DNA from: a virus
Virus record (IMG/VR): IMGVR_UViG_3300042525_000031
Coordinates: 1-47,949 of that record
Strand: one strand, 5' to 3'
Length of the DNA stretch: 47,949 bases
The position numbers were made by a program, and so were the translations under genes. The first letter of the stretch is position 1, and every line of letters begins with the position of its first letter. This document shows positions 33,113 through 45,550 of this stretch, one piece after another. Below the pieces are notes generated by a model that was given only the letters and a program-made list of their open reading frames with translations, had not been told where the DNA came from and did not search any database.

Positions 33113-33126
33113 ATAACAATTGTTAT
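33113..33126. promoter_or_regulatory. Early-arm palindrome, site 1
   Basis: ATAACAATTGTTAT, a perfect 14-bp palindrome 40 bp upstream of the -35 of the promoter at 33166-33195. Confidence 0.75.
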
Positions 33127-33165
33127 GCCCTCTGCCCATACTTGAAATTATTGTTTCCCTTAGAC

Positions 33166-33195
33166 TTGAATTGTGGTACATTTTAATGGTATAAT
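33166..33195 (+). promoter_or_regulatory. Sigma70-type promoter for 33277 gene
   Basis: TTGAAT (33166-33171), 18-bp spacer, TATAAT (33190-33195) preceded by GG as in the two other early promoters. The gene start at 33277 lies 81 bp downstream. Confidence 0.65.
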
Positions 33196-33229
33196 CCAAT
33201 CATGCAAACGAAATCAGTTGTTTGCATAC

Positions 33230-33243
33230 ATAACAAAAGTTAT
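33230..33243. promoter_or_regulatory. Degenerate early-arm palindrome
   Basis: ATAACAAAAGTTAT, two mismatches from the perfect form, 35 bp after the -10 and inside the leader of the first early gene. Confidence 0.5.
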
Positions 33244-33276
33244 GTTTCATGTTAGTAAATTTTGAAAGGTTAGAAA

Positions 33277-33768
33277 ATGGAAAATACAGTAACTCAGGTA
33301 GCAGTCATTCCCTTGTACGAATTGCGCACTGACTTGGTTAAGTCGGCCAAGAAAACCGGCCAAGTATTGAAGGCTTATGCGAACGGCTTATGCTCAGCGT
33401 TCGACCTTGTTGACAATGAGGGCAACATCACTTCTAAATGGTACGAACTTAAGGGTAAGCTGAAAGCTGGTATCAACGACGAGCGTAAGCTGTTCGTTGA
33501 AGCGTTCAAGGCTGAGGGTTTTGGAGACGCCACAATTACCGTTTACTGGCAACGAGTGAAGGAAGCGAGCGGGTATGTTACAGCGGGTAACAAGGTATCA
33601 GGCGGTGAAGTTGATATCGACGCGAAAACTTTGGCTGAGTTGAAAACGATTATCAATCGTATATTCAAAGCCGAAGAAGCGGGCACGGAGTGCAAAGCTT
33701 CCGAAGTGAAGGGCGAACTTATGACAGCTTATGCGATTCTCGGTGGTGACATCGACCAGCTAGGCTAA
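33277..33768 (+). CDS. First early protein, unknown; regulator candidate
   Basis: 163 aa, mostly helical and basic in the middle: RTDLVKSAKKTGQVLKAYAN, SKWYELKGKLKAGINDERKL, VYWQRVKEASGYV, DAKTLAELKTIINRIFKAEE. No family was recognised. It has its own promoter (33166-33195), SD GAAAGG and an immediate terminator, so it is transcribed alone. Palindromes of the early-arm type lie before and after it. That isolation fits a regulator or an abundant host-takeover protein, but there is no clear DNA-binding motif. Confidence 0.75.
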   Translation: MENTVTQVAVIPLYELRTDLVKSAKKTGQVLKAYANGLCSAFDLVDNEGNITSKWYELKGKLKAGINDERKLFVEAFKAEGFGDATITVYWQRVKEASGYVTAGNKVSGGEVDIDAKTLAELKTIINRIFKAEEAGTECKASEVKGELMTAYAILGGDIDQLG

Positions 33769-33774
33769 TCGAAT

Positions 33775-33796
33775 AGGGCAGGGTAAACCCTGCCCT
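33775..33796 (+). terminator. Terminator after first early gene
   Basis: AGGGCAGGG (33775-33783), loop TAAA, CCCTGCCCT (33788-33796), then GTTTAT. The 9-bp GC-rich stem starts 6 bp after the stop codon. Confidence 0.75.
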
Positions 33797-33800
33797 GTTT

Positions 33801-33814
33801 ATAACAATTGTTAT
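33801..33814. promoter_or_regulatory. Early-arm palindrome, site 2
   Basis: ATAACAATTGTTAT, perfect 14-bp palindrome 5 bp after the terminator stem and 20 bp before the next start codon. Confidence 0.75.
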
Positions 33815-33833
33815 ATTTAACGGAGAATCCAAA

Positions 33834-34031
33834 ATGATGCACAGCACAGAGAAAAAATTGCAACAACTGCAACGGATGGTCGAATGCGCTTACTTGAACG
33901 GCTTTGATTTTAAGGAAAGCCCAAAGTTTGACGCTCAAGTTTTAATCAATGAATTGCGCGAAGCAATTATTCAGGAAATGATTTTGGCGCGTGGTCGTGG
34001 TGTTGTGCATACTGCGCTACTGACTGACTAA
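33834..34031 (+). CDS. Small helical early protein
   Basis: 65 aa (start 33834; 33837 also possible). Helical and charged: STEKKLQQLQRMVECAYLNG, DAQVLINELREAIIQEMILA. An SD-like GGAG precedes. Terminators flank it on both sides and a palindrome lies just upstream, so its expression depends on readthrough or on an unseen promoter. Function unknown. Confidence 0.65.
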   Translation: MMHSTEKKLQQLQRMVECAYLNGFDFKESPKFDAQVLINELREAIIQEMILARGRGVVHTALLTD

Positions 34032-34050
34032 CCCTTACCCTCTTAACCAC

Positions 34051-34074
34051 AGCCCGCCTTGCGCGGGCTTTTTT
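34051..34074 (+). terminator. Terminator after second early gene
   Basis: AGCCCGC (34051-34057), 5-nt loop, GCGGGCT (34063-34069), then a T-run to 34074. A classical intrinsic terminator 20 bp after the stop. Confidence 0.85.
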
Positions 34075-34083
34075 GCGTCTATG

Positions 34084-34099
34084 TGTTTCACGTGAAACA
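34084..34099. promoter_or_regulatory. parS: Perfect bacterial parS sequence
   Basis: TGTTTCACGTGAAACA, an exact 16-bp match to the chromosomal parS consensus bound by ParB/Spo0J in most bacteria. It is a perfect palindrome. It shares its last base with the adjoining ATAACAATTGTTAT palindrome. No ParA or ParB gene is recognised in the window, so host ParB or a phage gene outside the window would be the ligand. Confidence 0.8.
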
Positions 34100-34112
34100 T
34101 AACAATTGTTAT
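34099..34112. promoter_or_regulatory. Early-arm palindrome, site 3
   Basis: ATAACAATTGTTAT, perfect 14-bp palindrome abutting the parS site. Confidence 0.75.
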
Positions 34113-34149
34113 GACGAGCTTTTGTTTTGCCCCGAATTTTTTTTGAATG

Positions 34150-34173
34150 CCAGTTCCCTGTGCGGCGTTAGCC
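34150..34173. repeat. 24-bp direct repeat, copy 1
   Basis: CCAGTTCCCTGTGCGGCG followed by TTAGCC. It recurs exactly 100 bp downstream with one mismatch. Confidence 0.85.
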
Positions 34174-34183
34174 TTGGCTTAGG

Positions 34184-34207
34184 TGAGACACTGCACGCAG
34201 TGTCTCA
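34184..34207 (+). terminator. Perfect 11-bp hairpin
   Basis: TGAGACACTGC (34184-34194) and its exact complement (34197-34207) around two bases, followed by TTATTTTTGG. It could be a terminator or an origin hairpin. It lies between the two 24-bp repeats. Confidence 0.5.
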
Positions 34208-34249
34208 TTATTTTTGGCTTTGACTATTGGGGGAAACCCTTACCCAAGA

Positions 34250-34273
34250 CCAGTTCCCCGTGCGGCGTTAGCC
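34250..34273. repeat. 24-bp direct repeat, copy 2
   Basis: CCAGTTCCCCGTGCGGCG followed by TTAGCC; 23 of 24 positions match copy 1. Confidence 0.85.
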
Positions 34274-34280
34274 CCGAGTC

Positions 34281-34292
34281 TAACAATTGTTA
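34281..34292. promoter_or_regulatory. Early-arm palindrome, site 4
   Basis: TAACAATTGTTA, perfect, 8 bp after the second 24-bp repeat. Confidence 0.75.
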
Positions 34293-34340
34293 TGTTTCGA
34301 GGTGTAATGTTATAACGTATCACACGTAAGTCATTGATTC

Positions 34341-34354
34341 ATAAGCATTGTTAT
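34341..34354. promoter_or_regulatory. Degenerate early-arm palindrome
   Basis: ATAAGCATTGTTAT. One half-site is perfect and the other is altered. TGTTACAATGTTACC follows with two further half-sites. Confidence 0.4.
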
Positions 34355-34436
34355 ATGTTACAATGTTACCGCAGTAGTATGAAACCCTGCCAAATTGAGC
34401 AACCCAGCAAGTGCATAACATCACACATATCCGCAC

Positions 34437-34451
34437 CTTGACATTGTCAAG
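34437..34451. promoter_or_regulatory. Second palindrome type, copy 1
   Basis: CTTGACATTGTCAAG: CTTGAC and GTCAAG around three bases. The same design, CTTGAC-AAA-GTCAAG, lies over the -35 of the promoter at 47143-47170. Confidence 0.5.
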
Positions 34452-34656
34452 TTCTATGGACTCTCTCTTTCTTAAAAACCATTACATTATAACATTACAT
34501 AAAAAACTCCCCGCAAACCCGCGCCCTGCTTGAATTCCTTGTGTTATGTTTTCCGTTATAAAAACCCAAAAATCCCATAACATTCCACATTTCCATAACG
34601 CCACTTTTGTAACGCAACCATGCGCCAACAACGCAACAAACACCACAACAAAAAAC

Positions 34657-34685
34657 TTGACAATCTCATAACTTTGTGGTATAAT
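34657..34685 (+). promoter_or_regulatory. Strong early promoter A
   Basis: TTGACA (34657-34662), exactly 17 bp, TATAAT (34680-34685): consensus in both hexamers. The spacer ends CATAACTTTGTGG, the same as promoter B at 38377. It would drive the operon beginning at 34771. Confidence 0.9.
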
Positions 34686-34736
34686 ATAAGCTGGTTGGGG
34701 AAAAACAAAACAAACCCAATCAACAAGTCCAAAACA

Positions 34737-34748
34737 TAACATTTGTTA
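34737..34748. promoter_or_regulatory. Early-arm palindrome, site 5
   Basis: TAACATTTGTTA, 51 bp after the -10 of promoter A, inside the leader of the operon. Confidence 0.78.
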
Positions 34749-34770
34749 GATTCAATCAGAAAGGTCAGAT

Positions 34771-34980
34771 ATGAACAAAGAAATCCAAACCCTTGCATCG
34801 GGCTTATACAGCCCATTGTTCGCAACCCGCGACTCAATCAAGGATGCAATCCACTACGCATACGGCATCGCCAAGGCATCCGACAACCCTGCCGCCATTA
34901 CCACTGCACTTCATGTGGTACTCAATACCATCGCCCAAGAACTTGAGCGTACCAACACCAACACAACCAAGGGGGAATAA
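34771..34980 (+). CDS. Small early protein, first gene of main operon
   Basis: 69 aa: NKEIQTLASGLYSPLFATRD, SIKDAIHYAYGIAKASDNPA, then a Thr/Asn-rich end. SD AAAGG precedes the ATG. Its TAA is the first triplet of the palindrome at 34978. Family not recognised. Confidence 0.7.
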   Translation: MNKEIQTLASGLYSPLFATRDSIKDAIHYAYGIAKASDNPAAITTALHVVLNTIAQELERTNTNTTKGE

Positions 34981-34989
34981 CAAATGTTA
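34978..34989. promoter_or_regulatory. Early-arm palindrome, site 6 (stop-start)
   Basis: TAACAAATGTTA. TAA ends the 34771 gene; ATG-TTA starts the 34984 gene. A GGGGG SD lies just upstream. Confidence 0.78.
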
Positions 34990-35214
34990 GATTTTGACTG
35001 GAAGATATGTATTGACTGCGGTGACGATGTACCAACTGCCCGATACCAAGCGTTCTGTTTGTTCTGTGAGCGTGACCGAGAGCATAGTGCAGAAGTTGAG
35101 CGCAGTTCGTGGTGCATCGTGCAAGAGTACGGCAAAGGCCCATATCAGTTAGTAACACCTACTAGCGCACCCACAACCTTGAAGCAGACTAACCAAAAGG
35201 AGTTGAGGACATGA
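34984..35214 (+). CDS. Zinc-ribbon small protein
   Basis: 76 aa. Two CxxC pairs (CIDCGDD, residues 9-12; CLFCERD, residues 25-28) indicate a treble-clef or ribbon zinc site. The C-terminus is Thr/Gln-rich. The start codon is inside a palindrome. It may bind nucleic acid or protein; family not recognised. Confidence 0.72.
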   Translation: MLDFDWKICIDCGDDVPTARYQAFCLFCERDREHSAEVERSSWCIVQEYGKGPYQLVTPTSAPTTLKQTNQKELRT

Positions 35215-35747
35215 CACATGAAAACCTACCCGCGCTCAACAAATACACAAGCCGCACCCAGTACGAAGCCCTGCTGGAGATTGACAAGTCGAAGTCAATA
35301 CTGAATGTCGTTATGAATGGTGCATCGAGCAAGACTCTCGGTGCATTGGTGCGGTGTATGTGGATAAGACAGAAAGACTACACCGACGACAACGGCATCG
35401 TGCGTGAGGGGTGGTTTGTTACCGAGGAGGGTAAACACGCCATGAGCGTGTACAAGGTCAAGCTCGACCGAGAGCAAGAGGAAACTCGCAAGTGTGAGGA
35501 ACGAGTGGCTAAGTTCGAGGGGTTTATCGTTGCGTTCGTAGAGATAACGGAAGCGAACAACCCAAAGATTGCGGCACTGCGTGAGGAGTTAGCCGTGCTG
35601 GAGAAGGAGGTATCTAACGCAAGGAATGAAGTCGTTGGATGGTCAAACCTCATACCCCAGTACGATTTGAACAGGATTCTGCACAAGTACAAATGTTCAA
35701 TCACGAGGAACGACAACTCAACAGACAGGAGATACAGATATGACTGA
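35211..35747 (+). CDS. Coiled-coil early protein
   Basis: 178 aa. The first half has ALNKYTSRTQYEALLEIDKS and LGALVRCMWIRQKDY. Residues 80-150 are a charged coiled coil (VKLDREQEETRKCEERVAKF, ALREELAVLEKEVSNARNEV). The ATGA junction with the zinc-ribbon gene suggests coupling. Function unknown. Confidence 0.7.
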   Translation: MTHENLPALNKYTSRTQYEALLEIDKSKSILNVVMNGASSKTLGALVRCMWIRQKDYTDDNGIVREGWFVTEEGKHAMSVYKVKLDREQEETRKCEERVAKFEGFIVAFVEITEANNPKIAALREELAVLEKEVSNARNEVVGWSNLIPQYDLNRILHKYKCSITRNDNSTDRRYRYD

Positions 35748-35991
35748 GCACGACTACGAGAAAGCATTGAAGTTGCTGGTTGCGGTGGAGTTAGACCTAC
35801 GCAACTACTTGAAGAACCCTGCCGAGTACCAAGCCCAGTACTTGGAAGACACGCACTGCTGTATCACAGAAGCCATGAGCCTGTTGGAAGTTGAACGCGC
35901 GGCTGGTGCTGAGCGTGACTACGACTACTTTGAGATGGAGGAGAACCTTGAGATTGACTTGGATGGTGGTTTGTCTGCCATAAACGAGTGA
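35740..35991 (+). CDS. Acidic helical early protein
   Basis: 83 aa: YEKALKLLVAVELDLRNYLK, YLEDTHCCITEAMSLLEVER, then a strongly acidic end (FEMEENLEIDLDGG). It overlaps the previous gene by 8 bp. The acidic surface could be DNA-mimicking but there is no evidence beyond composition. Confidence 0.68.
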   Translation: MTEHDYEKALKLLVAVELDLRNYLKNPAEYQAQYLEDTHCCITEAMSLLEVERAAGAERDYDYFEMEENLEIDLDGGLSAINE

Positions 35992-36188
35992 AGAAGTTCG
36001 TGTTGTTGCGGGGTAAAGATACAGGGATGCTGTATCTCTACGACCGTGAGACATACAAGTTCATGAAGAAAAGCAAAAACTTCAACTATGGCCACGATGT
36101 GCTTGAGTTCGTGGTAGACAACGACGACTCCGAGGTACTCAGGCAGATGCAAGCGTTGGTGAACAAAGACATACAAGTGGAGGAATAA
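35988..36188 (+). CDS. Small early protein, GTG start
   Basis: 66 aa beginning KKFVLLRGKDTGMLYLYDRE after a GTG that overlaps the previous TGA (GTGA). Two or three strands are followed by a helix (SEVLRQMQALVNKDIQ). Its TAA is the first triplet of the palindrome at 36186. Unknown. Confidence 0.65.
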   Translation: MKKFVLLRGKDTGMLYLYDRETYKFMKKSKNFNYGHDVLEFVVDNDDSEVLRQMQALVNKDIQVEE

Positions 36189-36197
36189 CAAATGTTA
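36186..36197. promoter_or_regulatory. Early-arm palindrome, site 7 (stop-start)
   Basis: TAACAAATGTTA. TAA ends the 35988 gene; ATG-TTA starts the 36192 gene; SD GGAGG lies upstream. Confidence 0.78.
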
Positions 36198-36392
36198 GAA
36201 GGACAGAACAACACCATCATGGTGGAGATTCGTGATGTGTACGGTGTATCGAAGATATACCCAGTGTGCGGTGAGGCGCAAATCTTTGCGGCCATTGCAG
36301 GAACGAAGACGCTTTTGCCCGAGGACATCAAGCGCATACAGATGCTTGGGTATGAGGTGAAGGTCAAGCAACCGAAAGAGGTGAGGCTATGA
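36192..36392 (+). CDS. Small early protein
   Basis: 66 aa: NTIMVEIRDVYGVSKIYPVC, AQIFAAIAGTKTLLPEDIKR, IQMLGYEVKV. A beta-beta-helix-helix-beta pattern. The start lies in a palindrome and the end overlaps the next ATG (ATGA). Unknown. Confidence 0.68.
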   Translation: MLEGQNNTIMVEIRDVYGVSKIYPVCGEAQIFAAIAGTKTLLPEDIKRIQMLGYEVKVKQPKEVRL

Positions 36393-36580
36393 AGTTCAGA
36401 GCATTGGTGAAGGCATCCTATATAGATCTGTTAATTGATGCAGAGAACGAGGAGGATGCGAGAAACAAAATATCCAAATGGATGTTTGACAAAAACAACC
36501 GCCCATTCAATGGCTGTTTGCGTTCTTTGGAGATGAGGATTCGCCAACCGTGGAAGAAACAACTAGAGGAAAAGAAATGA
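36389..36580 (+). CDS. Small protein related to MKTF paralogues
   Basis: 63 aa: MKFRALVKASYIDLLIDAEN then EEDARNKISKWMFD. The strand-strand-A-E-N-E-x-x-A-helix pattern is shared with the proteins at 41628 and 41795, suggesting a DpnD/PcfM-like small fold. Function unknown. ATGA overlaps at both ends. Confidence 0.62.
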   Translation: MKFRALVKASYIDLLIDAENEEDARNKISKWMFDKNNRPFNGCLRSLEMRIRQPWKKQLEEKK

Positions 36581-36798
36581 ATTGGAATCACAGAGTAGTT
36601 AACTGCCCATCAAATAATGGTGGCGAGGACTTGTACACATTCAAGGAGGTGTACTACGACGACCAAGACCGACCCGACTCGTACAGTGAGCCGTTCATGT
36701 GCGGAGACAGCGTGGACGAACTCAAAGAATTGTTACAGAGGCTAGAGAAAGCCTTGGGCAGACCTGTGTTGCACGAGAACGACTTCGAAGGGAGCTAA
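36577..36798 (+). CDS. Small acidic early protein
   Basis: 73 aa from ATG 36577, which overlaps the previous TGA and follows the SD AGAGGAAAAG; a longer frame from 36550 is less likely. Sequence: NWNHRVVNCPSNNGGEDLYT, TFKEVYYDDQDRPDSYSEPF, SVDELKELLQRLEKALGRPV. A beta part precedes one helix. Unknown. Confidence 0.65.
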   Translation: MNWNHRVVNCPSNNGGEDLYTFKEVYYDDQDRPDSYSEPFMCGDSVDELKELLQRLEKALGRPVLHENDFEGS

Positions 36799-36807
36799 CA
36801 AATGTTA
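36796..36807. promoter_or_regulatory. Early-arm palindrome, site 8 (stop-start)
   Basis: TAACAAATGTTA. TAA ends the 36577 gene; ATG-TTA starts the 36802 gene; SD GGGAG lies upstream. Confidence 0.78.
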
Positions 36808-36963
36808 GGTAGATACTACGTTACAGGTTGGTGCGGTAAGTTCAGCAACTGGGTTGCCGAGAGTATCGTGGCAAACAACATGAAGCTGGCGAAGGAGAGG
36901 TTCAAGACTTCTAACCCGACGCTCAAGAAAATCAAGGCATACAAAACAATGGGAGGTGTGTGA
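36802..36963 (+). CDS. Very small basic protein
   Basis: 53 aa: MLGRYYVTGWCGKFSNWVAE, KLAKERFKTSNPTLKKIKAY. ATG-TTA lies in a palindrome, TGA at 36961-36963. It resembles the 46-aa protein at 41267 in its opening (MLG-R-Y-Y followed by a short aromatic strand). Unknown. Confidence 0.6.
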   Translation: MLGRYYVTGWCGKFSNWVAESIVANNMKLAKERFKTSNPTLKKIKAYKTMGGV

Positions 36964-37190
36964 TGTCGTACAGAACAGTAACAGTGGATGTGGACGTGGA
37001 CTTGAGTGACTTTGATACCGAGGACTTGGTGGATGAGTTGGAGAGTCGTGGTAAAGAGGCAACGAGCCTGAGCTTTGACGACAACGAGACACTGACCAAG
37101 ATATGGTTGCACGACCGAGAGGGTCGCAAAGAGGAGGCTTACGTGTTGATGCGTGAGTATGTGTTAGAGAAATTAGGGAAGGTGGTGTGA
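36963..37190 (+). CDS. Acidic small protein
   Basis: 75 aa from ATG 36963. The ATG shares its first base with the previous TGA. MSYRTVTVDVDVDLSDFDTE, LVDELESRGKEATSLSFDDN, then a basic helix. Repeated Val-Asp strands suggest a small beta-alpha domain. A similar Asp-rich opening is common in phage early proteins; function unknown. Confidence 0.65.
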   Translation: MSYRTVTVDVDVDLSDFDTEDLVDELESRGKEATSLSFDDNETLTKIWLHDREGRKEEAYVLMREYVLEKLGKVV

Positions 37191-37191
37191 G

Positions 37192-38160
37192 ATGGGATAC
37201 GCAACAGTACATAGAGTGCCGAGGGTACACAACTACGCCGACGCACTGAAGATACACGACTCAATCAAGCCCCTGCGCGGACGTGCGGAGGAAATCAGAC
37301 CCTTGGGCAACCGACGGGATGCTGATACGTACCACATACGCAAGATTGGCGTGAAGATTGAGTTGGTCTTGTACAAGACTCCGGTCATTACATTCATGCC
37401 CGATGGCGACGTGGTGTTGTTTATTGATGGGTACAACACAGTATCCACACATCAGTTCATCGACCATGTGCTCAACATCAGGGCGCAGGGTGCAAGGCGC
37501 ACGACCGTGCTGACAATCAGTGGGCAGAAGTACACGCTTGCCGACTCGGACAAATTGCGTCTGCGCTTAGAAGATGGGAACTGGCATGTCCTCAATCCGA
37601 CCGCGCAATGGGGATGGAAACTCAACCGCAAGGAAATAACAAATGTTAGAACCAAGTACGGCGAGTTCTACAAGTACCTGAAAGGGTTCGTGAACCTGCG
37701 CTCGGAATCCATCACGGAATCCACATGGAATCCACGCACGTACGATGGAATCCACGTTGAACAAAGCGAGTTCAAGTCCGTGTTCGAGAGAATGGTACAC
37801 ATACGCGAGTATGCGTACATGGACAAGCGCGGCAAGCAACACTTGAACTGGACTAACGTCAAGCCCGAGCAGTACGAGCAGTCGGCCAAGGCGTTCGAGT
37901 ATTTGATTCGCCCCGACCAACCCGAGGACACCAAGCACACGAACTTCTACAAGGCGGCGTTGGCGTTGATTGCCAAGGTGGATACCGACACAATGGACAT
38001 ACGCACCGATGAGGTCAATGTGAGGTCAAAGCATATCGTGCCACTGCTTGATGATGTACTGTTTCAGTTGTACGCCAATCAGGTGTTGGTGCGCTATCAG
38101 TTACCGATGGGCAAGGTGTCGAGCGGCATCTATGAGCATTGGATGATGGGGTGGGAATAA
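37192..38160 (+). CDS. Large early protein of unknown function
   Basis: 322 aa. Conserved-looking blocks: VPRVHNYADALKIHDSIKPL, RDADTYHIRKIGVKIELVLY, VVLFIDGYNTVSTHQFIDHV and YQLPMGKVSSGIYEHWMMGW. The N-terminal half is beta-rich, the C-terminal half helical. No catalytic signature is seen. A palindrome (37637-37648) lies within the coding sequence and another contains its stop codon. Confidence 0.72.
   Translation: MGYATVHRVPRVHNYADALKIHDSIKPLRGRAEEIRPLGNRRDADTYHIRKIGVKIELVLYKTPVITFMPDGDVVLFIDGYNTVSTHQFIDHVLNIRAQGARRTTVLTISGQKYTLADSDKLRLRLEDGNWHVLNPTAQWGWKLNRKEITNVRTKYGEFYKYLKGFVNLRSESITESTWNPRTYDGIHVEQSEFKSVFERMVHIREYAYMDKRGKQHLNWTNVKPEQYEQSAKAFEYLIRPDQPEDTKHTNFYKAALALIAKVDTDTMDIRTDEVNVRSKHIVPLLDDVLFQLYANQVLVRYQLPMGKVSSGIYEHWMMGWE
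37637..37648. promoter_or_regulatory. Early-arm palindrome, site 9 (inside a gene)
   Basis: TAACAAATGTTA in the coding sequence of the 37192 gene, read as Ile-Thr-Asn-Val in that frame. The embedded ATG is out of frame. Confidence 0.65.
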
Positions 38161-38169
38161 CAAATGTTA
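38158..38169. promoter_or_regulatory. Early-arm palindrome, site 10 (stop-start)
   Basis: TAACAAATGTTA. TAA ends the 37192 gene; its ATG opens only an 8-codon frame that ends on the next gene start. Confidence 0.75.
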
Positions 38170-38190
38170 TACAAAGGAGAAAACACATGA
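38164..38190 (+). CDS. Possible 8-residue leader peptide
   Basis: ATG in the palindrome reads MLYKGENT then TGA at 38188-38190, overlapping the ATG of the membrane protein gene (ATGA). SD for this ATG is weak (GGGAATAACAA). It may be a coupling leader or a relic of a deleted gene. Confidence 0.3.
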   Translation: MLYKGENT

Positions 38191-38372
38191 TTGAATTTTC
38201 ATTGACAGAGATTGCACTGTTTTGCTGGGCCGTACTCGCTACTGGATACGCACTTAGATACAGACAGGAACAACGCGCGGCTGACTTGTTCATTCGGGTA
38301 TTGCTTGAGCGCAAGGATGTGCGGGACAAGTTGGTTGCCGAGTTCGAGGAGTTCAAGGCAAACCAAGGCTAA
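38187..38372 (+). CDS. Small membrane protein
   Basis: 61 aa from ATG 38187 with SD AAAGGAG. N-terminal membrane helix (LTEIALFCWAVLATGYAL, residues 6-23), then a charged helix (RQEQRAADLFIRVLLERKDV). Possible inhibitor or membrane-targeting early protein; family not recognised. Confidence 0.68.
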   Translation: MIEFSLTEIALFCWAVLATGYALRYRQEQRAADLFIRVLLERKDVRDKLVAEFEEFKANQG

Positions 38373-38376
38373 GAAC

Positions 38377-38405
38377 TTGACAATACCATAACTTTGTGGT
38401 ATAAT
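38377..38405 (+). promoter_or_regulatory. Strong early promoter B
   Basis: TTGACA (38377-38382), 17 bp, TATAAT (38400-38405). Over 32 bp it differs from promoter A in only two bases, including the spacer end CATAACTTTGTGG. It starts right after the 38187 gene and would drive the ATPase operon. Confidence 0.9.
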
Positions 38406-38453
38406 ATATATGTGAGTGGGAATTTGTGTGTCAGTTTTTCAACCGCCGAAACA

Positions 38454-38465
38454 TAACAAATGTTA
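38454..38465. promoter_or_regulatory. Early-arm palindrome, site 11
   Basis: TAACAAATGTTA, 48 bp after the -10 of promoter B, in the leader before the ATPase. Its ATG is in frame with the ATPase but has no SD. Confidence 0.78.
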
Positions 38466-38486
38466 GGCACATCAGGAGAGTTAGAA

Positions 38487-39548
38487 ATGTCAGAAGTTAA
38501 ATTTGGTAAGTCCGTGACTTTGAAGCAAGCGGCAACGCTTATCCGTACCAACCCCGAGACCATCTTCTTGTTGCAAGGCGAGCCGGGCATCGGCAAGTCC
38601 TCCCTACTAGAGCAGGTGGCAGGTAACTTGGGTTATGACCATGCGTATATTGACGTACCCAATATGGATTTGGGCGACATTGCAATGCCTGTGATCGACC
38701 ACGAGACCAAGACGACTCGGTACTACCCCAACGCTCGGTTCAAGATTCACGAGAAGAAGCCCATCGTCATCATGCTCGACGAGTACACCAAGGGCGCTGA
38801 CCCTGTGAAGAACATGCTTCACCCCATGTTCGAGAAGGCCAACCCGCGACTCGGTGACATCTCATTGGACAAAAACACCATCGTGTTCCTGACCGGCAAC
38901 TTGACGACCGACGGTGTCGGGGACTCGCTGAAACAGCACAGTGCGAATCGCTTAGTACCCATAACGATTGCCAAGCCGGACGCTGAACAGTGGTTGGAGT
39001 GGGCTATCCCCAAGGGTATCGAGCCTGAAGTGTGTGCATGGGTGAGCCGATTCCCTCATGTATTGGCGAGCTACACCGATGGGCATGGCGACAACCCCTA
39101 CATCTTCAACCCGAAGAAGCCACAGCGTGCGTTCGTGTCTCCACGTTCTCTCGCAACTGCAAGCAACATTGTGCGGTCACGTAAGTTCAACGACCCCGAT
39201 GCTGTGATTGCGGCGTTGACTGGTGCGTTGGGTGAGAGTGGTGCGCGGGACATGCAGGCGTACATCGAGTTCGCTGACCAACTACCAACATGGGAATCAA
39301 CCATCGGCAACCCTAAGACTACCAAGATACCTACAAGTCCGGGCGCTTGTGCGATTGTGGTGTTTGGCGCGATCTCACGTATCACCAAGGACACGATTAC
39401 ACCGTTCATGGAATACCTTGAGCGATTCGATGCCGAGTGGCAAGCCGTGTTCGCTATCAACATTGCCAAGGCCAAGGACAAACAAGCGATTGCGTTCAGT
39501 TCCAAGTCGTTCAGCAACTGGGTTGCGAAGAACCAAGACCTGCTCTAA
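38487..39548 (+). CDS. MoxR-type AAA+ ATPase
   Basis: 353 aa. I use ATG 38487 with SD AGGAG; an in-frame ATG at 38460 would add nine residues. Walker A GEPGIGKSS (31-39), Walker B IVIMLDE (93-99), sensor 1 VFLTGN, then NRLVPI as a possible arginine-finger region. The order and spacing fit the MoxR/CobS-like branch, which remodels or activates partner proteins with VWA domains. A metallopeptidase-VWA gene follows two genes later. Stop codon TAA begins a palindrome. Confidence 0.88.
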   Translation: MSEVKFGKSVTLKQAATLIRTNPETIFLLQGEPGIGKSSLLEQVAGNLGYDHAYIDVPNMDLGDIAMPVIDHETKTTRYYPNARFKIHEKKPIVIMLDEYTKGADPVKNMLHPMFEKANPRLGDISLDKNTIVFLTGNLTTDGVGDSLKQHSANRLVPITIAKPDAEQWLEWAIPKGIEPEVCAWVSRFPHVLASYTDGHGDNPYIFNPKKPQRAFVSPRSLATASNIVRSRKFNDPDAVIAALTGALGESGARDMQAYIEFADQLPTWESTIGNPKTTKIPTSPGACAIVVFGAISRITKDTITPFMEYLERFDAEWQAVFAINIAKAKDKQAIAFSSKSFSNWVAKNQDLL

Positions 39549-39557
39549 CAATTGTTA
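39546..39557. promoter_or_regulatory. Early-arm palindrome, site 12 (stop-start)
   Basis: TAACAATTGTTA. TAA ends the ATPase gene. The final A is the first base of the next ATG (39557). Confidence 0.78.
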
Positions 39558-39847
39558 TGTACGTAGCAATTGAAAACAAAGGCGAACTGCCGTTGAAGTT
39601 TGAGAAGTTGGAATGGTTGGAGAAGAAGTTGAAAAAACTTGACCCTGCCTACCAACTTCTCATCAAGAAACGCATGTTCGAACTGTTGTATATGGCAGAG
39701 TTTGAGTTCACCCTAGTGAGGTGGGAAGGAACGCCTATGAAGAACAAACGACACCTAGTCCTTGAGACCAAGGACTTAGAGCAAATGGAGTCAGCGTTGT
39801 TCATGCTGATAAACACGGAGGAAGAAGATGCAAACAACAAGCGTTGA
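39557..39847 (+). CDS. Small protein between ATPase and VWA genes
   Basis: 96 aa from ATG 39557. MYVAIENKGELPLKFEKLEW, then a basic helix (KKLKKLDPAYQLLIKKRMFE), a strand pair and an acidic end. There is no clear SD, so coupling to the ATPase stop is likely. Unknown; possible adaptor of the ATPase-VWA pair. Confidence 0.65.
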   Translation: MYVAIENKGELPLKFEKLEWLEKKLKKLDPAYQLLIKKRMFELLYMAEFEFTLVRWEGTPMKNKRHLVLETKDLEQMESALFMLINTEEEDANNKR

Positions 39848-40055
39848 CTACAAAGACCTGCGCGAAGATGTACAAGCAAGATACATCGTGCAGTGGATAA
39901 CCGCAACCAATCGACATGGGGAGTTAATCATCATGGGTTGGTGCGTGAGGGACACAGATGACACCCAGTGGGCGACCCTGTTTCAACACGAAGATGAGAA
40001 CGTGTGTAGAAAAGTGTGTGACATGTTAAACGAGAAGGAGCATAACAAATGTTAG
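39828..40055 (+). CDS. Small protein upstream of VWA gene
   Basis: 75 aa: SVDYKDLREDVQARYIVQWI, TNRHGELIIMGWCVRDTDDT, NVCRKVCDMLNEKEHNKC. It overlaps the previous gene by 20 bp and ends (TAG) inside the palindrome that starts the VWA gene. Unknown. Confidence 0.62.
   Translation: MQTTSVDYKDLREDVQARYIVQWITATNRHGELIIMGWCVRDTDDTQWATLFQHEDENVCRKVCDMLNEKEHNKC
40043..40054. promoter_or_regulatory. Early-arm palindrome, site 13
   Basis: TAACAAATGTTA. ATG-TTA starts the VWA gene; the upstream gene ends on the TAG formed by the palindrome plus the next base. SD AAGGAG precedes. Confidence 0.78.
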
Positions 40056-41263
40056 AAGAACGTAAAGTGCAGAAGGCCAAGATTATGTTGATGCGCAACC
40101 CAAAGTTTGCGCTACTGTCTGGCGTGTTGATGGTTGGACGTACGAGCGTAGTGGATAACATCCCGACCGCATGTACCAATGGCCGTGATGAGAAGTATGG
40201 CCGCAAGTTCGTGAGTGAGTTGCGTGACCAAGAGCTTGGGTTCTTGATTGCACACGAGGCATCGCACAAGATGTATCGACACCTGACCACATGGAAGAAG
40301 TTGCATGACGAGAACCACAAGCTGGCGAATCAGGCTTGTGACTACGTGATTAACCTGATGCTCCGAGACCTCGATCCGAACGAGACACTCATTGCAATGC
40401 CGCGCTACCCCAAGGGGCACAAGATGGCGGGTAAACCGATGGGTTTGATCGACGAGCGATTCCGTGGCATGAACACCAAGCAAGTGTTCGACATACTCAA
40501 GCAGGAGAAAGAGGATGGCGACGGGGGCGAGGGTGATGGCGAAGGTGATGGCCTCGACGAGCACGATTGGGGTGGTGCGAAAGACATGACCGACGAGGAG
40601 AAGCGTGAGCTTGAGCGCGAGATCGACCAAGCCATACGCCAAGGCATGATGGCGCGTCATAAGTTAGCGGGTACTGGAGCAGATGGTTCAGACCGAGAGC
40701 TTGCCGACCTGATGGAGCCGAAGGTCAATTGGCGTGAAGTCCTGCGTGACTTTGTGAAATCAATCTGCAATTCCAAGGACGCATCGTCATGGCGCAGGGT
40801 TAATCGTAGGTTCTTATCCACAGGTGTTTACATGCCTACGTTGATCGGTGAGAAGGTAGGCCACTTGGTTATTGCTGTTGACACATCGGGTTCGGTGGGT
40901 GACGAGGAGTTGTCCGAGTTCTTATCCGAGGTTAAGGGTATCGCAGAAGAAGTAAACCCTGCGTGTGTGGACTTGCTGTACTGGGGTAGCGATGTGGTGG
41001 GGCATGAGACGTATGGTGATGGTGAGGCAACCAACATCATCAACTCAACACGACCCAAGGGTGGCGGTGGCACAAGCCCGACCTGCGTATCAGAGTATCT
41101 CAAGGAGAAGAACATCAAGCCCGAGTGCGTCATCATCCTGACCGATGGTTGCGTGGGCGATGACTGGGGCAGTGAGTGGACTGCACCTACGTTGTGGTGC
41201 ATTGTCGGTGACTACTTTGATGGCGAAGCTGACAACGGCAAGACCATCCACATCAAGGACTAA
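40049..41263 (+). CDS. Metallopeptidase-VWA protein (DUF2201-like)
   Basis: 404 aa. The N-terminal domain has a zincin motif HEASH (H69, E70, H73) followed by LANQACDYVINLML, as in the DUF2201 putative metallopeptidase family. Residues 155-200 are an acidic linker. The C-terminal VWA domain has an intact MIDAS: DTSGS (278-282), GGGGTSP and ILTDGC. Together with the upstream MoxR-type ATPase it forms a phage version of the MoxR-VWA pair. Host target unknown. Confidence 0.85.
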   Translation: MLEERKVQKAKIMLMRNPKFALLSGVLMVGRTSVVDNIPTACTNGRDEKYGRKFVSELRDQELGFLIAHEASHKMYRHLTTWKKLHDENHKLANQACDYVINLMLRDLDPNETLIAMPRYPKGHKMAGKPMGLIDERFRGMNTKQVFDILKQEKEDGDGGEGDGEGDGLDEHDWGGAKDMTDEEKRELEREIDQAIRQGMMARHKLAGTGADGSDRELADLMEPKVNWREVLRDFVKSICNSKDASSWRRVNRRFLSTGVYMPTLIGEKVGHLVIAVDTSGSVGDEELSEFLSEVKGIAEEVNPACVDLLYWGSDVVGHETYGDGEATNIINSTRPKGGGGTSPTCVSEYLKEKNIKPECVIILTDGCVGDDWGSEWTAPTLWCIVGDYFDGEADNGKTIHIKD

Positions 41264-41272
41264 CAAATGTTA
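41261..41272. promoter_or_regulatory. Early-arm palindrome, site 14 (stop-start)
   Basis: TAACAAATGTTA. TAA ends the VWA gene; ATG-TTA starts the 41267 gene. Confidence 0.78.
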
Positions 41273-41407
41273 GGGGGCAGGTACTACATCGTGCATCGGT
41301 ATGGCAAGTGGAGAGTGATCGACTTGGAGACACGCAAGATACTGGTGAAAGTCAGCACCCTACAGTTAGCCGAGGCGTACTTGCGACTACTAGGAGAAAA
41401 GGAATGA
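41267..41407 (+). CDS. Very small protein
   Basis: 46 aa: MLGGRYYIVHRYGKWRVIDL, then TLQLAEAYLRLLGEKE. Two strands and a helix. ATG in a palindrome, TGA at 41405-41407 overlapping the next ATG. Its opening resembles the 36802 protein. Unknown. Confidence 0.6.
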   Translation: MLGGRYYIVHRYGKWRVIDLETRKILVKVSTLQLAEAYLRLLGEKE

Positions 41408-41631
41408 GGATACAACGAGGGACTGTGTACATGTGTAGCCTTGGCAAAGAAATCATGGGCGCAGTACCAAACCGCATGTGGTGGAAACCGTGGATGTGGC
41501 AAGTGGAGATATTGCCTTGGGCTAGTAACTGGAAAAGCGGGCACACCGTTCGCAACCTGACGATGGATGGGGCAATCGGTGTGATGAAACTGTACGGCAT
41601 CAAACACACAGACTTTGAGGAGAAAACATGA
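41404..41631 (+). CDS. Small Trp/Met-rich protein
   Basis: 75 aa from ATG 41404 (SD AGGAGAAAAGG). RIQRGTVYMCSLGKEIMGAV, MWWKPWMWQVEILPWASNWK. Unusually rich in Trp. Unknown. Confidence 0.62.
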   Translation: MRIQRGTVYMCSLGKEIMGAVPNRMWWKPWMWQVEILPWASNWKSGHTVRNLTMDGAIGVMKLYGIKHTDFEEKT

Positions 41632-41798
41632 AAACATTTAGAGGGACGGTGGTATTCACGTACTACCAAGAGAGAACCGTAGAAGCGGAGAACGAAGACC
41701 AAGCGCGAGAGATCATGTACAACGAGTTTCACATGCGTAAGTCAGATGGTGATAGTGAGATTCAAAACTTTGAAGAAATTACAGGAGAAGAGCAATGA
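41628..41798 (+). CDS. MKTF small protein, copy 1
   Basis: 56 aa. MKTFRGTVVFTYYQERTVEA, then ENEDQAREIMYNEF and an acidic end. Same design as the next gene: two strands, A-E-N-E-D-x-A, one helix. It resembles DpnD/PcfM-like small domains. ATGA overlaps on both sides. Function unknown. Confidence 0.62.
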   Translation: MKTFRGTVVFTYYQERTVEAENEDQAREIMYNEFHMRKSDGDSEIQNFEEITGEEQ

Positions 41799-41956
41799 AA
41801 ACATTTGAAGTGGAGTTGGAGTACACGGCATACGTAACCGTAACAGTGTTAGCCGAGAACGAGGATGAAGCTGAGGCAATGGCGACAAGGTCGCTTGAAG
41901 CATCGAAGGCAGATGGTAGTTGGCGTGTTGAGTCAGTCGAAGAAATTTTTAATTAA
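41795..41956 (+). CDS. MKTF small protein, copy 2
   Basis: 53 aa. MKTFEVELEYTAYVTVTVLA, then ENEDEAEAMATRSLEA and an acidic-aromatic end. Tandem paralogue of the 41628 gene. Possible DpnD/PcfM-like fold. The TAA at 41954-41956 overlaps the first 18-bp repeat. Confidence 0.62.
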   Translation: MKTFEVELEYTAYVTVTVLAENEDEAEAMATRSLEASKADGSWRVESVEEIFN

Positions 41957-41972
41957 GGGGAATCAAAATGAG
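41955..41972. repeat. 18-bp repeat around start codon, copy 1
   Basis: AAGGGGAATCAAAATGAG, containing SD and ATG of the 41968 gene; identical copy at 42284-42301. Confidence 0.9.
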
Positions 41973-42300
41973 CGATTGGATGACTGAACCGTATGGTATC
42001 CCGCACAAGAACGGCATGGTGCGGTTCTATTTGGTTGGGGTTGAGGAAGATGTGCATGATTATCTTGGGTGGTTTGATATGACTGATTGGGACAAGGGCT
42101 GGGAAAAAGTATGGGAAGCCGCAGAGAACAGCCGTAATGCTAAAAATGGGGAAGCGTTCCAAGTGCTACGCCACGACCAAATGCTGGACTTAATGAGGAA
42201 TGTGCAATGGGCTTTTGAATTAGCGTTGGAAGATAAAAACGAGACGACATGGAGTTATTGGTGGAAACAAGAGAAATCTAAACAAGGGGAATCAAAATGA
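41968..42300 (+). CDS. Trp-rich early protein
   Basis: 110 aa: MSDWMTEPYGIPHKNGMVRF, YLGWFDMTDWDKGWEKVWEA, MLDLMRNVQWAFELALEDKN. Rich in Trp and acidic residues. It is flanked by two identical 18-bp repeats that each hold an SD and start, as if inserted as a cassette. Unknown. Confidence 0.65.
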   Translation: MSDWMTEPYGIPHKNGMVRFYLVGVEEDVHDYLGWFDMTDWDKGWEKVWEAAENSRNAKNGEAFQVLRHDQMLDLMRNVQWAFELALEDKNETTWSYWWKQEKSKQGESK

Positions 42301-42301
42301 G
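42284..42301. repeat. 18-bp repeat around start codon, copy 2
   Basis: AAGGGGAATCAAAATGAG, containing the SD and ATG of the 42297 gene and the TGA of the previous one. Confidence 0.9.
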
Positions 42302-43148
42302 TATTAGTTCATCAGCGTTGTTAGTGGAATTGAATATCAGCGTATGGCCTGCGTCCAAGTTGGACAGGGAGATCACCGACAAGGTGAACAGCGATGCGTC
42401 TGCGGTTCGTGGTGCGAGTCAGACCAAGAAGAATCTGTTTGCAGGTACGTCACTACGCAAAGACATCTCAGACTTCGCCGCACGTATCCGTCTGTATCAC
42501 AACCGGCACACACTGCCGTGGGCAGACAAGGGTGAGCGCATGTTACCGACTGCGTTGTTCATGGACTACAAGCAGACCATGAATGGGTTCGAGCAGACAT
42601 TCAACATGATGTGCGACAACTTCTTCATCGAGTACCCGCGTCTTGTTGCAGAAGCACCTATTAACTTAGGCACTATGTACAAGGCCGAGGACTACCCCGA
42701 CCTAACAGATGTTAGGTTGAAGTTCGGGTTCAAGCGCACAGTTAAACCTGTGCCCGAGGCGGGCGACTTTCGCTTAGACATTCCTGCGTATGACTTGGAG
42801 GAGATGCGTAGCGAGTTCATTGCACAGCAAGAGAACAAGTTGGCCGAGGCCATGCGTGAGCCGTGGGACAGACTGCACGAGATGTTGGTGGGTATCTCTG
42901 AGAAGCTGACTGACAAGGATGGCGACGGCAAGAAGCGTTACCACGACACACTTATCTCTAACCCCATTGAGTTGTGTGGACTGCTGACCAAGCTGAACGT
43001 GACCAATGACCCCAAGTTGGAGGAAGCACGTAGACAGTTGGAGTTGGCGATGGTGACTGCTGACATTGAGGACATCAAAGAACATGCAGATTCACGTAGC
43101 GAGTTGAAGTCCAAGGTGGACGACATCCTCAAGCGTTTCGAGTGGTAA
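42297..43148 (+). CDS. Helical protein, possible DUF3150-like partner of ATPase-VWA pair
   Basis: 283 aa. ALLVELNISVWPASKLDREI, SLRKDISDFAARIRLYHNRH, TLPWADKGERMLPTALFMDY, then a long helical region (DYKQTMNGFEQTFNMMCDNF, PWDRLHEMLVGISEKLTDKD). This layout recalls the DUF3150 proteins that accompany CobS/MoxR-like ATPases and VWA proteins in other phages. I recall that link from memory and cannot check it. A degenerate palindrome lies inside. Confidence 0.6.
   Translation: MSISSSALLVELNISVWPASKLDREITDKVNSDASAVRGASQTKKNLFAGTSLRKDISDFAARIRLYHNRHTLPWADKGERMLPTALFMDYKQTMNGFEQTFNMMCDNFFIEYPRLVAEAPINLGTMYKAEDYPDLTDVRLKFGFKRTVKPVPEAGDFRLDIPAYDLEEMRSEFIAQQENKLAEAMREPWDRLHEMLVGISEKLTDKDGDGKKRYHDTLISNPIELCGLLTKLNVTNDPKLEEARRQLELAMVTADIEDIKEHADSRSELKSKVDDILKRFEW
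42703..42714. promoter_or_regulatory. Degenerate early-arm palindrome inside a gene
   Basis: TAACAGATGTTA, one base from consensus, within the 42297 coding sequence. Confidence 0.45.
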
Positions 43149-43160
43149 TAACAATTGTTA
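43149..43160. promoter_or_regulatory. Early-arm palindrome, site 15
   Basis: TAACAATTGTTA, directly after the TAA of the 42297 gene and before the SD (GGAGCAGAGC) of the 43171 gene. Confidence 0.78.
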
Positions 43161-43170
43161 GGAGCAGAGC

Positions 43171-44052
43171 ATGAACACATTAGAACTGAACAACGTAGAG
43201 ATTGGCGCAAAGCTACAACAGGAAATGGTCGAGCGCGAGATTAGGGGCGACACCCATAAAGTATTTGTGCATAAGGTAATAGACCCAGCCATTCAACGTC
43301 TGGCCACACTGAACCCGCTGTGGAGATTTGTCGCTATTGGTTGGGGCTATGGGTATGGCGAGGGCGAAGCCAAACTTGCGCTTACAAACTTCAGTGTACT
43401 TGAGCATGGAGAAGAGATAGGTAAGATTTCCCGCGAACGTAAGGGCAACAACGATGTAATCCACATTGCCAACGAGCGTATCGCCAAGACACGAGAGCGT
43501 AGTACAGGGTATAGCACAGTAGATGCAGACAAGGCTGTGCTCAAGGCCAAGAAGATGTTCTTCAAACTCAAGCCCAACGAGCGTATCGAGAAGGCTATGG
43601 AGAATGCGGAGAAAGTTATGTCTCATCAGAAGCGGCTGAAAGACCGCGAGAAGTATTCTGCCGAGAGCACTATCAAGACTGCCGCGCATACGTTCATCAT
43701 GGGAACTGGCTTTCCTTTGTTCCTTGAGCATATCAAAACAGGTGCAGAGCATGAGCGCAACAAAATCATGATGGCTATGGAGGAAGACAAACGCCTAGCC
43801 GATGAGATGATGACTATCGAGAAAGCTAAGGCTGAGTTCGAGGCAGGTAAGACCGCGCTTGTCATCAAAGATGGTGGTAAATACCTAGTCAAGATAGGTG
43901 ACAAGGTGGACTTGTTTGATGATAATACGCTCCCCGATTGGATGCGTGGCAAGTTGGGTATGTTGAAGCTAGTGCAAGCCGAGGCGTTCATATCGGACAC
44001 AGGTTGCAGAGTGAACGATGAGACGTTCGTGTTGATCGTAGAGGAGACATAA
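43171..44052 (+). CDS. Early protein of unknown function
   Basis: 293 aa. Beta-rich part with LWRFVAIGWGYGYGEGEAKL and EIGKISRERKGNNDVIHIAN, then helices rich in Lys and Glu (RIEKAMENAEKVMSHQKRLK). The end has DGGKYLVKIGDKVDLFDDNT, a small beta motif. No family recognised. Stop TAA opens a palindrome. Confidence 0.7.
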   Translation: MNTLELNNVEIGAKLQQEMVEREIRGDTHKVFVHKVIDPAIQRLATLNPLWRFVAIGWGYGYGEGEAKLALTNFSVLEHGEEIGKISRERKGNNDVIHIANERIAKTRERSTGYSTVDADKAVLKAKKMFFKLKPNERIEKAMENAEKVMSHQKRLKDREKYSAESTIKTAAHTFIMGTGFPLFLEHIKTGAEHERNKIMMAMEEDKRLADEMMTIEKAKAEFEAGKTALVIKDGGKYLVKIGDKVDLFDDNTLPDWMRGKLGMLKLVQAEAFISDTGCRVNDETFVLIVEET

Positions 44053-44061
44053 CAAATGTTA
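44050..44061. promoter_or_regulatory. Early-arm palindrome, site 16 (stop-start)
   Basis: TAACAAATGTTA. TAA ends the 43171 gene; ATG-TTA starts the 44056 gene; SD GAGGAGA upstream. Confidence 0.78.
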
Positions 44062-44604
44062 GATGACACGCAGAAAGCAAAGCTACTCATAGAGCACAGG
44101 CCGTGGGAGAACGAACCTGACTTTGAAGAGTGGATTCACAAAGGCACTGGGTATCGTTGCCGTGTTATGCGCAACGAGTCAACGTTAGCTCTGTGTGGGT
44201 ATGTTGCAGTACCCATAGGTAACAAATTGCGGGGTATGAGTTACCAAGACGCAGAGGAGGTTGGTGTTCATGCGCATGGCGGCTTGACCTTTGGCGACAA
44301 GATGGATAGGCGCAAGTGGTTCGGGTTTGACTGCGCTCATTCAGGTGACTTGGTTCCGATGTTTCACATGCGACGAGTTATTGAAGGCTCAATGTATCCC
44401 GATGTGGTGAAAGAGACATACCGCACGTTTGATTGGGTCAAGCAAGAAACAGAGAAGCTGGCTTACTCACTTATGAGGACGCACGACCTGATTATCCATG
44501 ACGAAGTAATGAGGGGGGCTAAGGACGCACTGCGTGGTGGTACTAGCGTAACCGAAAAGCTTGCCAAGCGTGGGTATGTTCACAAAGAAAAGAAAAGGGG
44601 ATAA
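44056..44604 (+). CDS. Conserved phage protein with HGGLTF and FDCAH motifs
   Basis: 182 aa. WENEPDFEEWIHKGTGYRCR, LCGYVAVPIG, VHAHGGLTFGDK and WFGFDCAHSGDLVPMF. These His, Cys and Asp motifs are shared by a family found in many unrelated phages, with no proven function as far as I know. The clustered His/Asp/Cys suggests metal binding. It ends with a basic tail; TAA begins the next palindrome. Confidence 0.72.
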   Translation: MLDDTQKAKLLIEHRPWENEPDFEEWIHKGTGYRCRVMRNESTLALCGYVAVPIGNKLRGMSYQDAEEVGVHAHGGLTFGDKMDRRKWFGFDCAHSGDLVPMFHMRRVIEGSMYPDVVKETYRTFDWVKQETEKLAYSLMRTHDLIIHDEVMRGAKDALRGGTSVTEKLAKRGYVHKEKKRG

Positions 44605-44613
44605 CAAATGTTA
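44602..44613. promoter_or_regulatory. Early-arm palindrome, site 17 (stop-start)
   Basis: TAACAAATGTTA. TAA ends the 44056 gene; ATG-TTA starts the 44608 gene; SD AGGGG upstream. Confidence 0.78.
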
Positions 44614-44730
44614 TGGGATGTATTAACTTGGGTTGCAGTGTTTTTGTTGGGCGGCTTGGTAGCTTTGGTTGCTGGTGCAATCTTCATAGCGGCAATTTAT
44701 TTTTTACAGAATGGGGGCAAGGATGATTGA
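44608..44730 (+). CDS. 40-residue membrane protein
   Basis: MLWDVLTWVAVFLLGGLVAL then VAGAIFIAAIYFLQNGGKDD. One long hydrophobic helix with Gly-rich faces. ATG in a palindrome; TGA at 44728-44730 overlaps the next gene. Possible early membrane modifier or superinfection factor; function unknown. Confidence 0.65.
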   Translation: MLWDVLTWVAVFLLGGLVALVAGAIFIAAIYFLQNGGKDD

Positions 44731-44959
44731 ACCGACCACACCAGAAGAGGACGAGGCGTTCGATAACATTGAACGACTGAGCAAAATAGCACAAGACTTG
44801 GTTAGACGACAGACAGAATTGTCACAGGCACGCAACAACGTCATCGAAGAAGTGGCACAGCGTTTTGAAAAGGCACGTGATGGATGCTCACCTGACGACA
44901 TCATGGGTAGACGATGGATGGACAGTGCCGCAGAGCTTGTAAGGAGCATGAAAAAATGA
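44723..44959 (+). CDS. Small acidic helical protein
   Basis: 78 aa from ATG 44723, preceded by GGGGGCAAGG; an alternative ATG at 44711 adds four residues. MIEPTTPEEDEAFDNIERLS, QDLVRRQTELSQARNNVIEE. Helical throughout. Unknown. Confidence 0.65.
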   Translation: MIEPTTPEEDEAFDNIERLSKIAQDLVRRQTELSQARNNVIEEVAQRFEKARDGCSPDDIMGRRWMDSAAELVRSMKK

Positions 44960-45135
44960 AAGAGGAATTGACCAAACTCGTTGCCGACAGTTACGACCAA
45001 GGGGTTAAAGACGGAGTAGAAGTAGCTCGCAATGCAACCCTAGAAGAAGTGGCAGTAGCCATTGAGCGCATGAAAGGCTTCGGCCCTGACACCATCAGTT
45101 CGTTTGCAATTTACATAAGGGAGATGAAGAAATGA
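44956..45135 (+). CDS. Small helical protein
   Basis: 59 aa from ATG 44956 (ATGA overlap with previous). MKEELTKLVADSYDQGVKDG, EVAVAIERMKGFGPDTISSF. This pattern of small phage helical protein is common; function unknown. Confidence 0.65.
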   Translation: MKEELTKLVADSYDQGVKDGVEVARNATLEEVAVAIERMKGFGPDTISSFAIYIREMKK

Positions 45136-45332
45136 GCGATACAGAAGAAGAAGTCCAAGCGGCGTTTCCTGACCGATACCGAGATGGTATGACCTTGCGG
45201 GACTATTTTGCGGCACAGGCTATGCAAGCGTTGCTATCAGACTCCGACTGGCGACAAGACATGGACTTTAAAGACACTGCAATTGCCGCTTACCGACAAG
45301 CAGACGCAATGATGAAGGCAAGAGAGCAATGA
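45132..45332 (+). CDS. Small conserved phage protein
   Basis: 66 aa. The block GMTLRDYFAAQAMQALLSDS with a helical end (IAAYRQADAMMKAREQ) recurs in short proteins of many phages. Function unknown. ATGA overlaps at both ends. Confidence 0.7.
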   Translation: MSDTEEEVQAAFPDRYRDGMTLRDYFAAQAMQALLSDSDWRQDMDFKDTAIAAYRQADAMMKAREQ

Positions 45333-45550
45333 GTTTCAGAACCACAACCGTCAAATACATCAAAGAAGTGTTGAGGGCTAGGACGATTCACGAAGTCATT
45401 GCCAATGAACTGCGGGAAGCACACCTGCGCAAGCTGGAAGCTGAGACTGCGGCTGAGTATGCAAATGCGGCTATTCAATACAACGAACAACGAATTGCAC
45501 GACTGATGGCACGATTGACTGAACACACAGAAGAGGGAGATTACACATGA
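45329..45550 (+). CDS. Small coiled-coil protein
   Basis: 73 aa: SFRTTTVKYIKEVLRARTIH, ELREAHLRKLEAETAAEYAN, a single long amphipathic helix. Probably oligomeric. Unknown. Confidence 0.66.
   Translation: MSFRTTTVKYIKEVLRARTIHEVIANELREAHLRKLEAETAAEYANAAIQYNEQRIARLMARLTEHTEEGDYT

Follow-up and report, generated by a model that had tools for sequence, protein, structure and literature searches.

The window analysed here, a 47,949-bp virus contig from IMG/VR taken over its whole length, has a GC content of 49% and no end repeats. It is an incomplete phage genome, at 47.9 kb vs 60-63 kb in several relatives and 61.5 kb in the complete phage DSL-LC04, with ~13 kb missing. The late genes (portal, terminase, capsid, and tail) run leftward from 33.1 kb, and the other block runs rightward. 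On the plus strand, beside the control region, are a 163-aa ORF of no known family (33277..33768) and a 65-aa ORF without family (33834..34031), the latter stopping just 5' of an intrinsic terminator at 34051-34069. This terminator, on the plus strand and conserved family-wide, consists of AGCCCGCCTTGCGCGGGCT-TTTTT and extends with its GCGTCT tail over 34051..34080. Right behind it, 53 bp past the stop codon of the 65-aa ORF, begins the feature on which this report centers: at 34084-34099 stands TGTTTCACGTGAAACA, an exact copy of the bacterial chromosomal parS consensus TGTTNCACGTGAAACA (which may not be the host's own parS), all 16 bp of which are perfectly palindromic. The site is intergenic, with only one 54-codon and one 21-codon ORF spanning it. 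Its 3' end is 558 bp from a perfect sigma-70 consensus promoter (TTGACA-17-TATAAT, 34657..34685, plus strand), which is conserved in relatives and lies 5' of the rightward (early) genes; the first ORF 3' of the control region is at 34771..34980 (plus strand). The first-pass annotation had described an exact parS consensus in a phage control region, and both the match and its placement between an intrinsic terminator and an early promoter are confirmed. By chance, ~1.1e-5 exact parS copies are expected in 47,949 bp (47949/4^16), and a pattern scan detected no second parS within 3 mismatches elsewhere in the record (0 for a control palindrome).

The control region is rich in other symmetrical and repeated elements. 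Perfect 16-bp palindromes at 33-35 kb number three, i.e., parS and two copies of a phage-own TAACAATTGTTA motif, the second TAACAATTGTTA palindrome of the control region being at 34281..34292. The other copy is the phage-specific palindrome CATAACAATTGTTATG (34098..34113), which overlaps parS by 2 bp (a shared CA), and a TAACA palindrome occupies the control-region slot of relatives, whether or not they carry parS. A pair of 24-bp direct repeats, CCAGTTCCC(T/C)GTGCGGCGTTAGCC (34150-34173 and 34250-34273, plus strand), is kept in the control regions of many relatives. At 34182-34209 there is a strong hairpin, GGTGAGACACTGCACGCAGTGTCTCATT, for which relatives show pair-preserving changes (GAGACAC..GTGTCTC to GATACAC..GTGTATC). 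The promoter sequence (34651-34688) is repeated elsewhere in the genomes of relatives, and matches between window positions 38363-38422 and two of them, L397 and L398, correspond to this repeated promoter module. TAACANNTGTTA palindromes are present in 19 copies over 33114-47098 vs ~0.05 expected, and relatives have them too; many are at stop/start junctions (TAA CAA ATG TTA) of rightward genes and others in the control region, and they are probably a phage-wide regulatory or translational signal. Further away, an AAA ATPase and a metallopeptidase/VWA protein form a pair at 38460-39548 and 40049-41263 (PHROG 1297 and 1314), the ATPase being related to N4-like phage proteins, and the tail fibre gene contains an 18-bp perfect palindrome, ACAGCAATATATTGCTGT, at 9815-9832.

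Recurrence of the site among relatives

Among 80 relatives recovered from IMG/VR through their terminase, some at loci ending short of the control region, none carries parS within 2 mismatches. The picture of parS as a singleton of this phage, which these relatives had suggested, was overturned by switching the bait to the 163-aa ORF, which yielded 44 loci, and by a scan specific for the slot. In L363, whose whole contig is L397, GTTTCACGTGAAAC stands at the same slot, flanked by GGGCTTTTTTGCGTCT and the TAACA palindrome. The slot reads CGTTTCACGTGAAACC in L397 and TGTTTCACGTGAAACC in L398, the latter with 15/16 parS bases and found by scanning for the terminator together with the parS core. 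A one-mismatch form, TGTTTCACGTGGAACA, is present in L383/L384 in the neighboring intergenic region, 5' of the gene for the 163-aa ORF. When aligned, the window, L397, and L398 share a 14-bp core at 14/14 positions between diverged flanks, and non-carriers miss the whole segment; where L397 and L398 align with the window, identity is mostly 70-84%. The best-aligned relatives (L123, and L353 with 87% nucleotide identity over the region) have a clean 11-bp gap where parS stands. The closest relatives (L353, L123/L365, and L124/L354) are without parS, as are most family members, from which it follows that the site is not essential. Across 45 distinct slot sequences, parS is found in the window and L363 only. 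Furthermore, no IMG/VR record but the window has an exact parS with TAACAAWTGTTA within 30 bp downstream, since relatives deviate either in the final base of parS or in the palindrome.

In a tree of the AAA ATPase, the window, L397, and L398 do not form a clade; three changes are needed, and the starred branches force 3. It follows from this that the site has been repeatedly gained, lost, or exchanged. Given phage mosaicism, separate gains and an exchanged control region are both conceivable, and the three carriers may share parS through exchange of one such region. What is observed is a recurrence of the parS core at the slot, and steady conservation is not claimed. Absence from all relatives, which the first-pass annotation had named in its refuting condition, does not hold, as the divergent L397 and L398 carry the core at this slot; it is missing from the closest relatives. 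Such a patchy occurrence would suit an accessory trait that depends on the host. Among named relatives with a terminase match, DSL-LC04 (Dishui Lake, complete) comes nearest, at 57% identity, and is labelled "Gammaproteobacteria." Assigning a host via MAG contigs was uninformative, with four matches in four different phyla. A near-match in Pelagibacter phage HTVC027P (15/16 bases) was set aside as a coding coincidence, being in an unannotated reading frame (F-H-V-K-H codons).

Exact parS in phages without a ParB match

The same 16 bp are widespread in other phages. Exact parS is present at at least 120 loci in IMG/VR, compared with 1 and 20 for two control palindromes of the same composition. 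The 18-mer GTGTTTCACGTGAAACAT also occurs at at least 120 loci and is contained in ~18 of the 120 parS loci listed, a share from which we estimate by extrapolation that IMG/VR holds at least about 800 parS loci. GenBank phage records with exact parS number 286 vs 0 and 4 for the control palindromes (the 4 being Rhizobium phages), some "Listeria phage LM 4-.." records among them looking like unannotated fragments and possibly bacterial contamination; the argument for a class of phages is therefore made with annotated isolates. Judging from this excess over control palindromes, chance matches are a minority, a few per cent, of phage parS sites. Since equal palindromes are not enriched, recognition of the sequence, not formation of a hairpin, is the likely cause. 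Among the IMG/VR matches listed, a simple gene call places 67 of 146 parS sites in noncoding DNA vs a 9.5% background, the corresponding figures being 8/47 for other 16-bp palindromes and 6/20 for control sites, and 46 of the 50 listed parS-bearing contigs of more than 15 kb give no ParB_N match.

Most sites in the isolates looked at are intergenic. Annotated isolates with an intergenic parS include Clavibacter CMP1, Vibrio phi 3, Bacillus vB_BcoS-136 and Chedec 11, Lactobacillus Iacchus, Butyrivibrio Arian, Gordonia Orchid, Glutamicibacter Voltaire, Arthrobacter Joann and Mimi, Roseobacter DSS3P8, and an inovirus. None of them has a ParB match that exceeds the cut-off of the family, and phi 3, Mimi, and DSS3P8 give sub-threshold matches only. 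Several isolates without an above-cut-off ParB have multiple sites, six in the inovirus bajarodino, four in vB_BcoS-136, and three each in DSS3P8 and Arian. Microbacterium phage Quhwah, considered as a ParB-less example, was dropped since it has a ParB-like protein and its parS is inside a gene. The gene context of parS varies widely among these other phages. Between Gordonia phages Orchid and Woes, and between Lactobacillus phages Iacchus and LpeD, little can be aligned at these places besides parS, which in Gordonia phages is embedded in a longer palindrome. Two isolates deserve separate mention. Bajarodino virus 6 (PQ006149.1), a 5.9-kb inovirus without a ParB match in which five of six exact parS are intergenic, is a striking case for the possible use of host ParB by a filamentous phage. 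The long terminal repeat of Vibrio phage phi 3 (KP280063.1) contains parS on one side of the A1 gene and a one-mismatch copy on the other; in T5-like phages, long terminal repeat DNA enters first.

The excess of chromosomal parS in ParB-less phages is strong and apparently undescribed, as no description was found in the open-access literature, most subscription papers and preprints being outside the scope of that search. We lean toward a general interpretation in which unrelated phages, whether tailed, filamentous, or microviruses, have independently come to carry the host centromere site without ParB and routinely use host ParABS/SMC, with the window as one example and the control region of its family as a hot slot where parS comes and goes. 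This class of phages is more interesting than the single site in the window.

Host ParB as the probable partner of the site

Profile searches, in which control genomes gave matches, returned no ParB_N (PF02195) or ParA-type AAA_31 (PF13614) match in the window, 12 relatives (six of them of 60-63 kb), or the complete DSL-LC04, no HTH_ParB (PF17762) match in the window or 11 relatives, and no phage integrase (PF00589) match in the window or in those relatives that were searched; the ~13 kb that this contig lacks, and the larger part of L397 and L398, lie outside the Par searches. The first-pass annotation was therefore right in seeing no parA or parB in the window. Within the sequence searched, the phage has the parS of another replicon without a parAB of its own, as in a hijack of the SGI1 type. 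The true partner of parS could conceivably be a ParB encoded in the missing ~13 kb, as part of a phage ParABS in a plasmid-like prophage, since the contig is incomplete and some phages do have ParABS. However, the lack of matches in relatives, including those of 60-63 kb and a complete genome, makes a phage-encoded ParABS unlikely and this particular scenario very improbable, and thus speaks against the phage ParB outside the window that had been offered as an alternative. Plasmid-like maintenance, another of the early suggestions, finds no direct support, and the sequence searched gave no integrase or ParA-type match.

The exact intergenic site, its reappearance in this slot in relatives that are not sisters, the failure of ParA, ParB, and integrase profiles to match, and the large excess of parS in phages of many hosts lead us to propose, with a probability of about 0.68, that 34084-34099 is a loading site for host chromosomal ParB that this phage, itself without Par proteins, has acquired and retained. 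ParB is known to nucleate on parS as a CTP clamp that slides along DNA, to be coupled to ParA, and to load SMC. By extension from this established biology, on phage entry host ParB would bind parS, close as a clamp, and slide over the control region next to it and over the early genes. The phage DNA would then be coupled to the host segregation apparatus through host ParA, perhaps together with SMC, which would keep it at the nucleoid or close to the origin, and in a slow or delayed infection daughter cells could inherit it. The benefit is the least certain part of this proposal. Positioning or partition is only a tentative choice, slightly short of even odds if host ParB does load, and titration, regulation, or protection of incoming DNA may share the remainder. 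Points that argue against this proposal are that most family members, the closest included, do without the site, that there is a single copy, that some hosts have no ParB, that ~13 kb of the genome is missing, and that the carriers may owe parS to one exchanged control region.

Other roles for the site, or none, have to be weighed against this proposal. Local regulation, in which spreading ParB would lower or delay transcription of the early operon as a switch responding to host-cell state, or would insulate the boundary between terminator and early promoter, is unlikely, though it is the best placed of these alternatives. Consistent with it, the promoter at 34657 is within ParB spreading range, and in Pseudomonas aeruginosa an increase in ParB is reported to repress promoters adjoining parS (PMC5521831). 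However, the promoter is 558 bp distant and is conserved in relatives that have no parS, and in other phages parS sits in many different gene contexts. Somewhat less likely again is that parS acts as a sponge, with the copies on replicated genomes drawing ParB (and SMC) off the host chromosome and disturbing segregation to the benefit of the phage. Carriers do include phages usually deemed virulent, for which inheritance would be worth less (Listeria P100, Harbinvirus Iacchus, and the phi29-like Chedec 11), and extra copies of SGI1 parS destabilise its helper plasmid in a copy-number-dependent manner (PMC10954446). Against this, one parS per genome would be a weak titrator here, and filamentous phages and microviruses are among the carriers.

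That the site is a functionless 16-bp match in a fast-evolving spacer is improbable. The spacer is indeed variable and without parS in the closest relatives, the best parS match over the 45 slots does not improve on shuffled sequence (a mean of 7.69 vs 7.77 mismatches), and presumably many stretches of DNA were surveyed before this parS was singled out. These points are countered by the ~1e-5 expectation in the window, by the return of the core in two divergent lineages and of a variant next door when 1.34 Mb of family DNA should contain ~0.02 parS cores, and by the class-wide excess over control palindromes; the original judgment that a chance match is very unlikely is thereby upheld. There is also very little room for an RNA hairpin, a part of the terminator, or an operator of a phage repressor that has the sequence of parS by coincidence. 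The site is palindromic, it adjoins a terminator, and the Gordonia sites are inside longer palindromes. However, other palindromes with the same composition and pairing are rare while this exact sequence recurs in unrelated phages, so it is the sequence that would be recognized, not a fold. Moreover, relatives that have no parS still retain both the terminator and the TAACA palindrome, and no compensatory changes preserving a hairpin at the expense of the sequence were seen.

If host ParB does load on phage genomes, this would account for the excess of chromosomal parS in ParB-less phages, and the segregation machinery would be one more host system that is borrowed by phages, or withdrawn by them from the host. 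Natural plus/minus pairs exist in this phage and its closest relatives, and multi-site cultured phages (of Bacillus, Roseobacter, Gordonia, and Lactobacillus) are also available for testing.

Comparison with known systems

The phage site is the same 16-bp perfect palindrome as chromosomal parS in bacterial ParABS systems (Spo0J/ParB family). Unlike the chromosomal sites, it is a single copy, it is on a phage genome with no parA/parB alongside, and it is known from sequence alone. The phage-encoded ParABS systems of P1, N15, and certain mycobacteriophages likewise place parS on a phage genome, with the difference that these phages encode ParA and ParB and use parS sequences of their own, neither gene having been found in the sequence searched here. 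Imaging of lambda-parS has shown that ParB made by the cell loads on infecting phage DNA bearing parS, with foci appearing within ten minutes of infection, which makes such loading physically possible, although this was an artificial construct and the fluorescent ParB was expressed separately (PMC13190303). The closest proven analogue is SGI1, a mobile element without ParAB of its own whose parS mimics have been demonstrated experimentally to use and disturb the ParABS of an IncC plasmid (PMC10954446). While SGI1 is an integrative element that borrows from a plasmid, the present case would be its counterpart on a tailed phage, with a parS of the chromosomal type.
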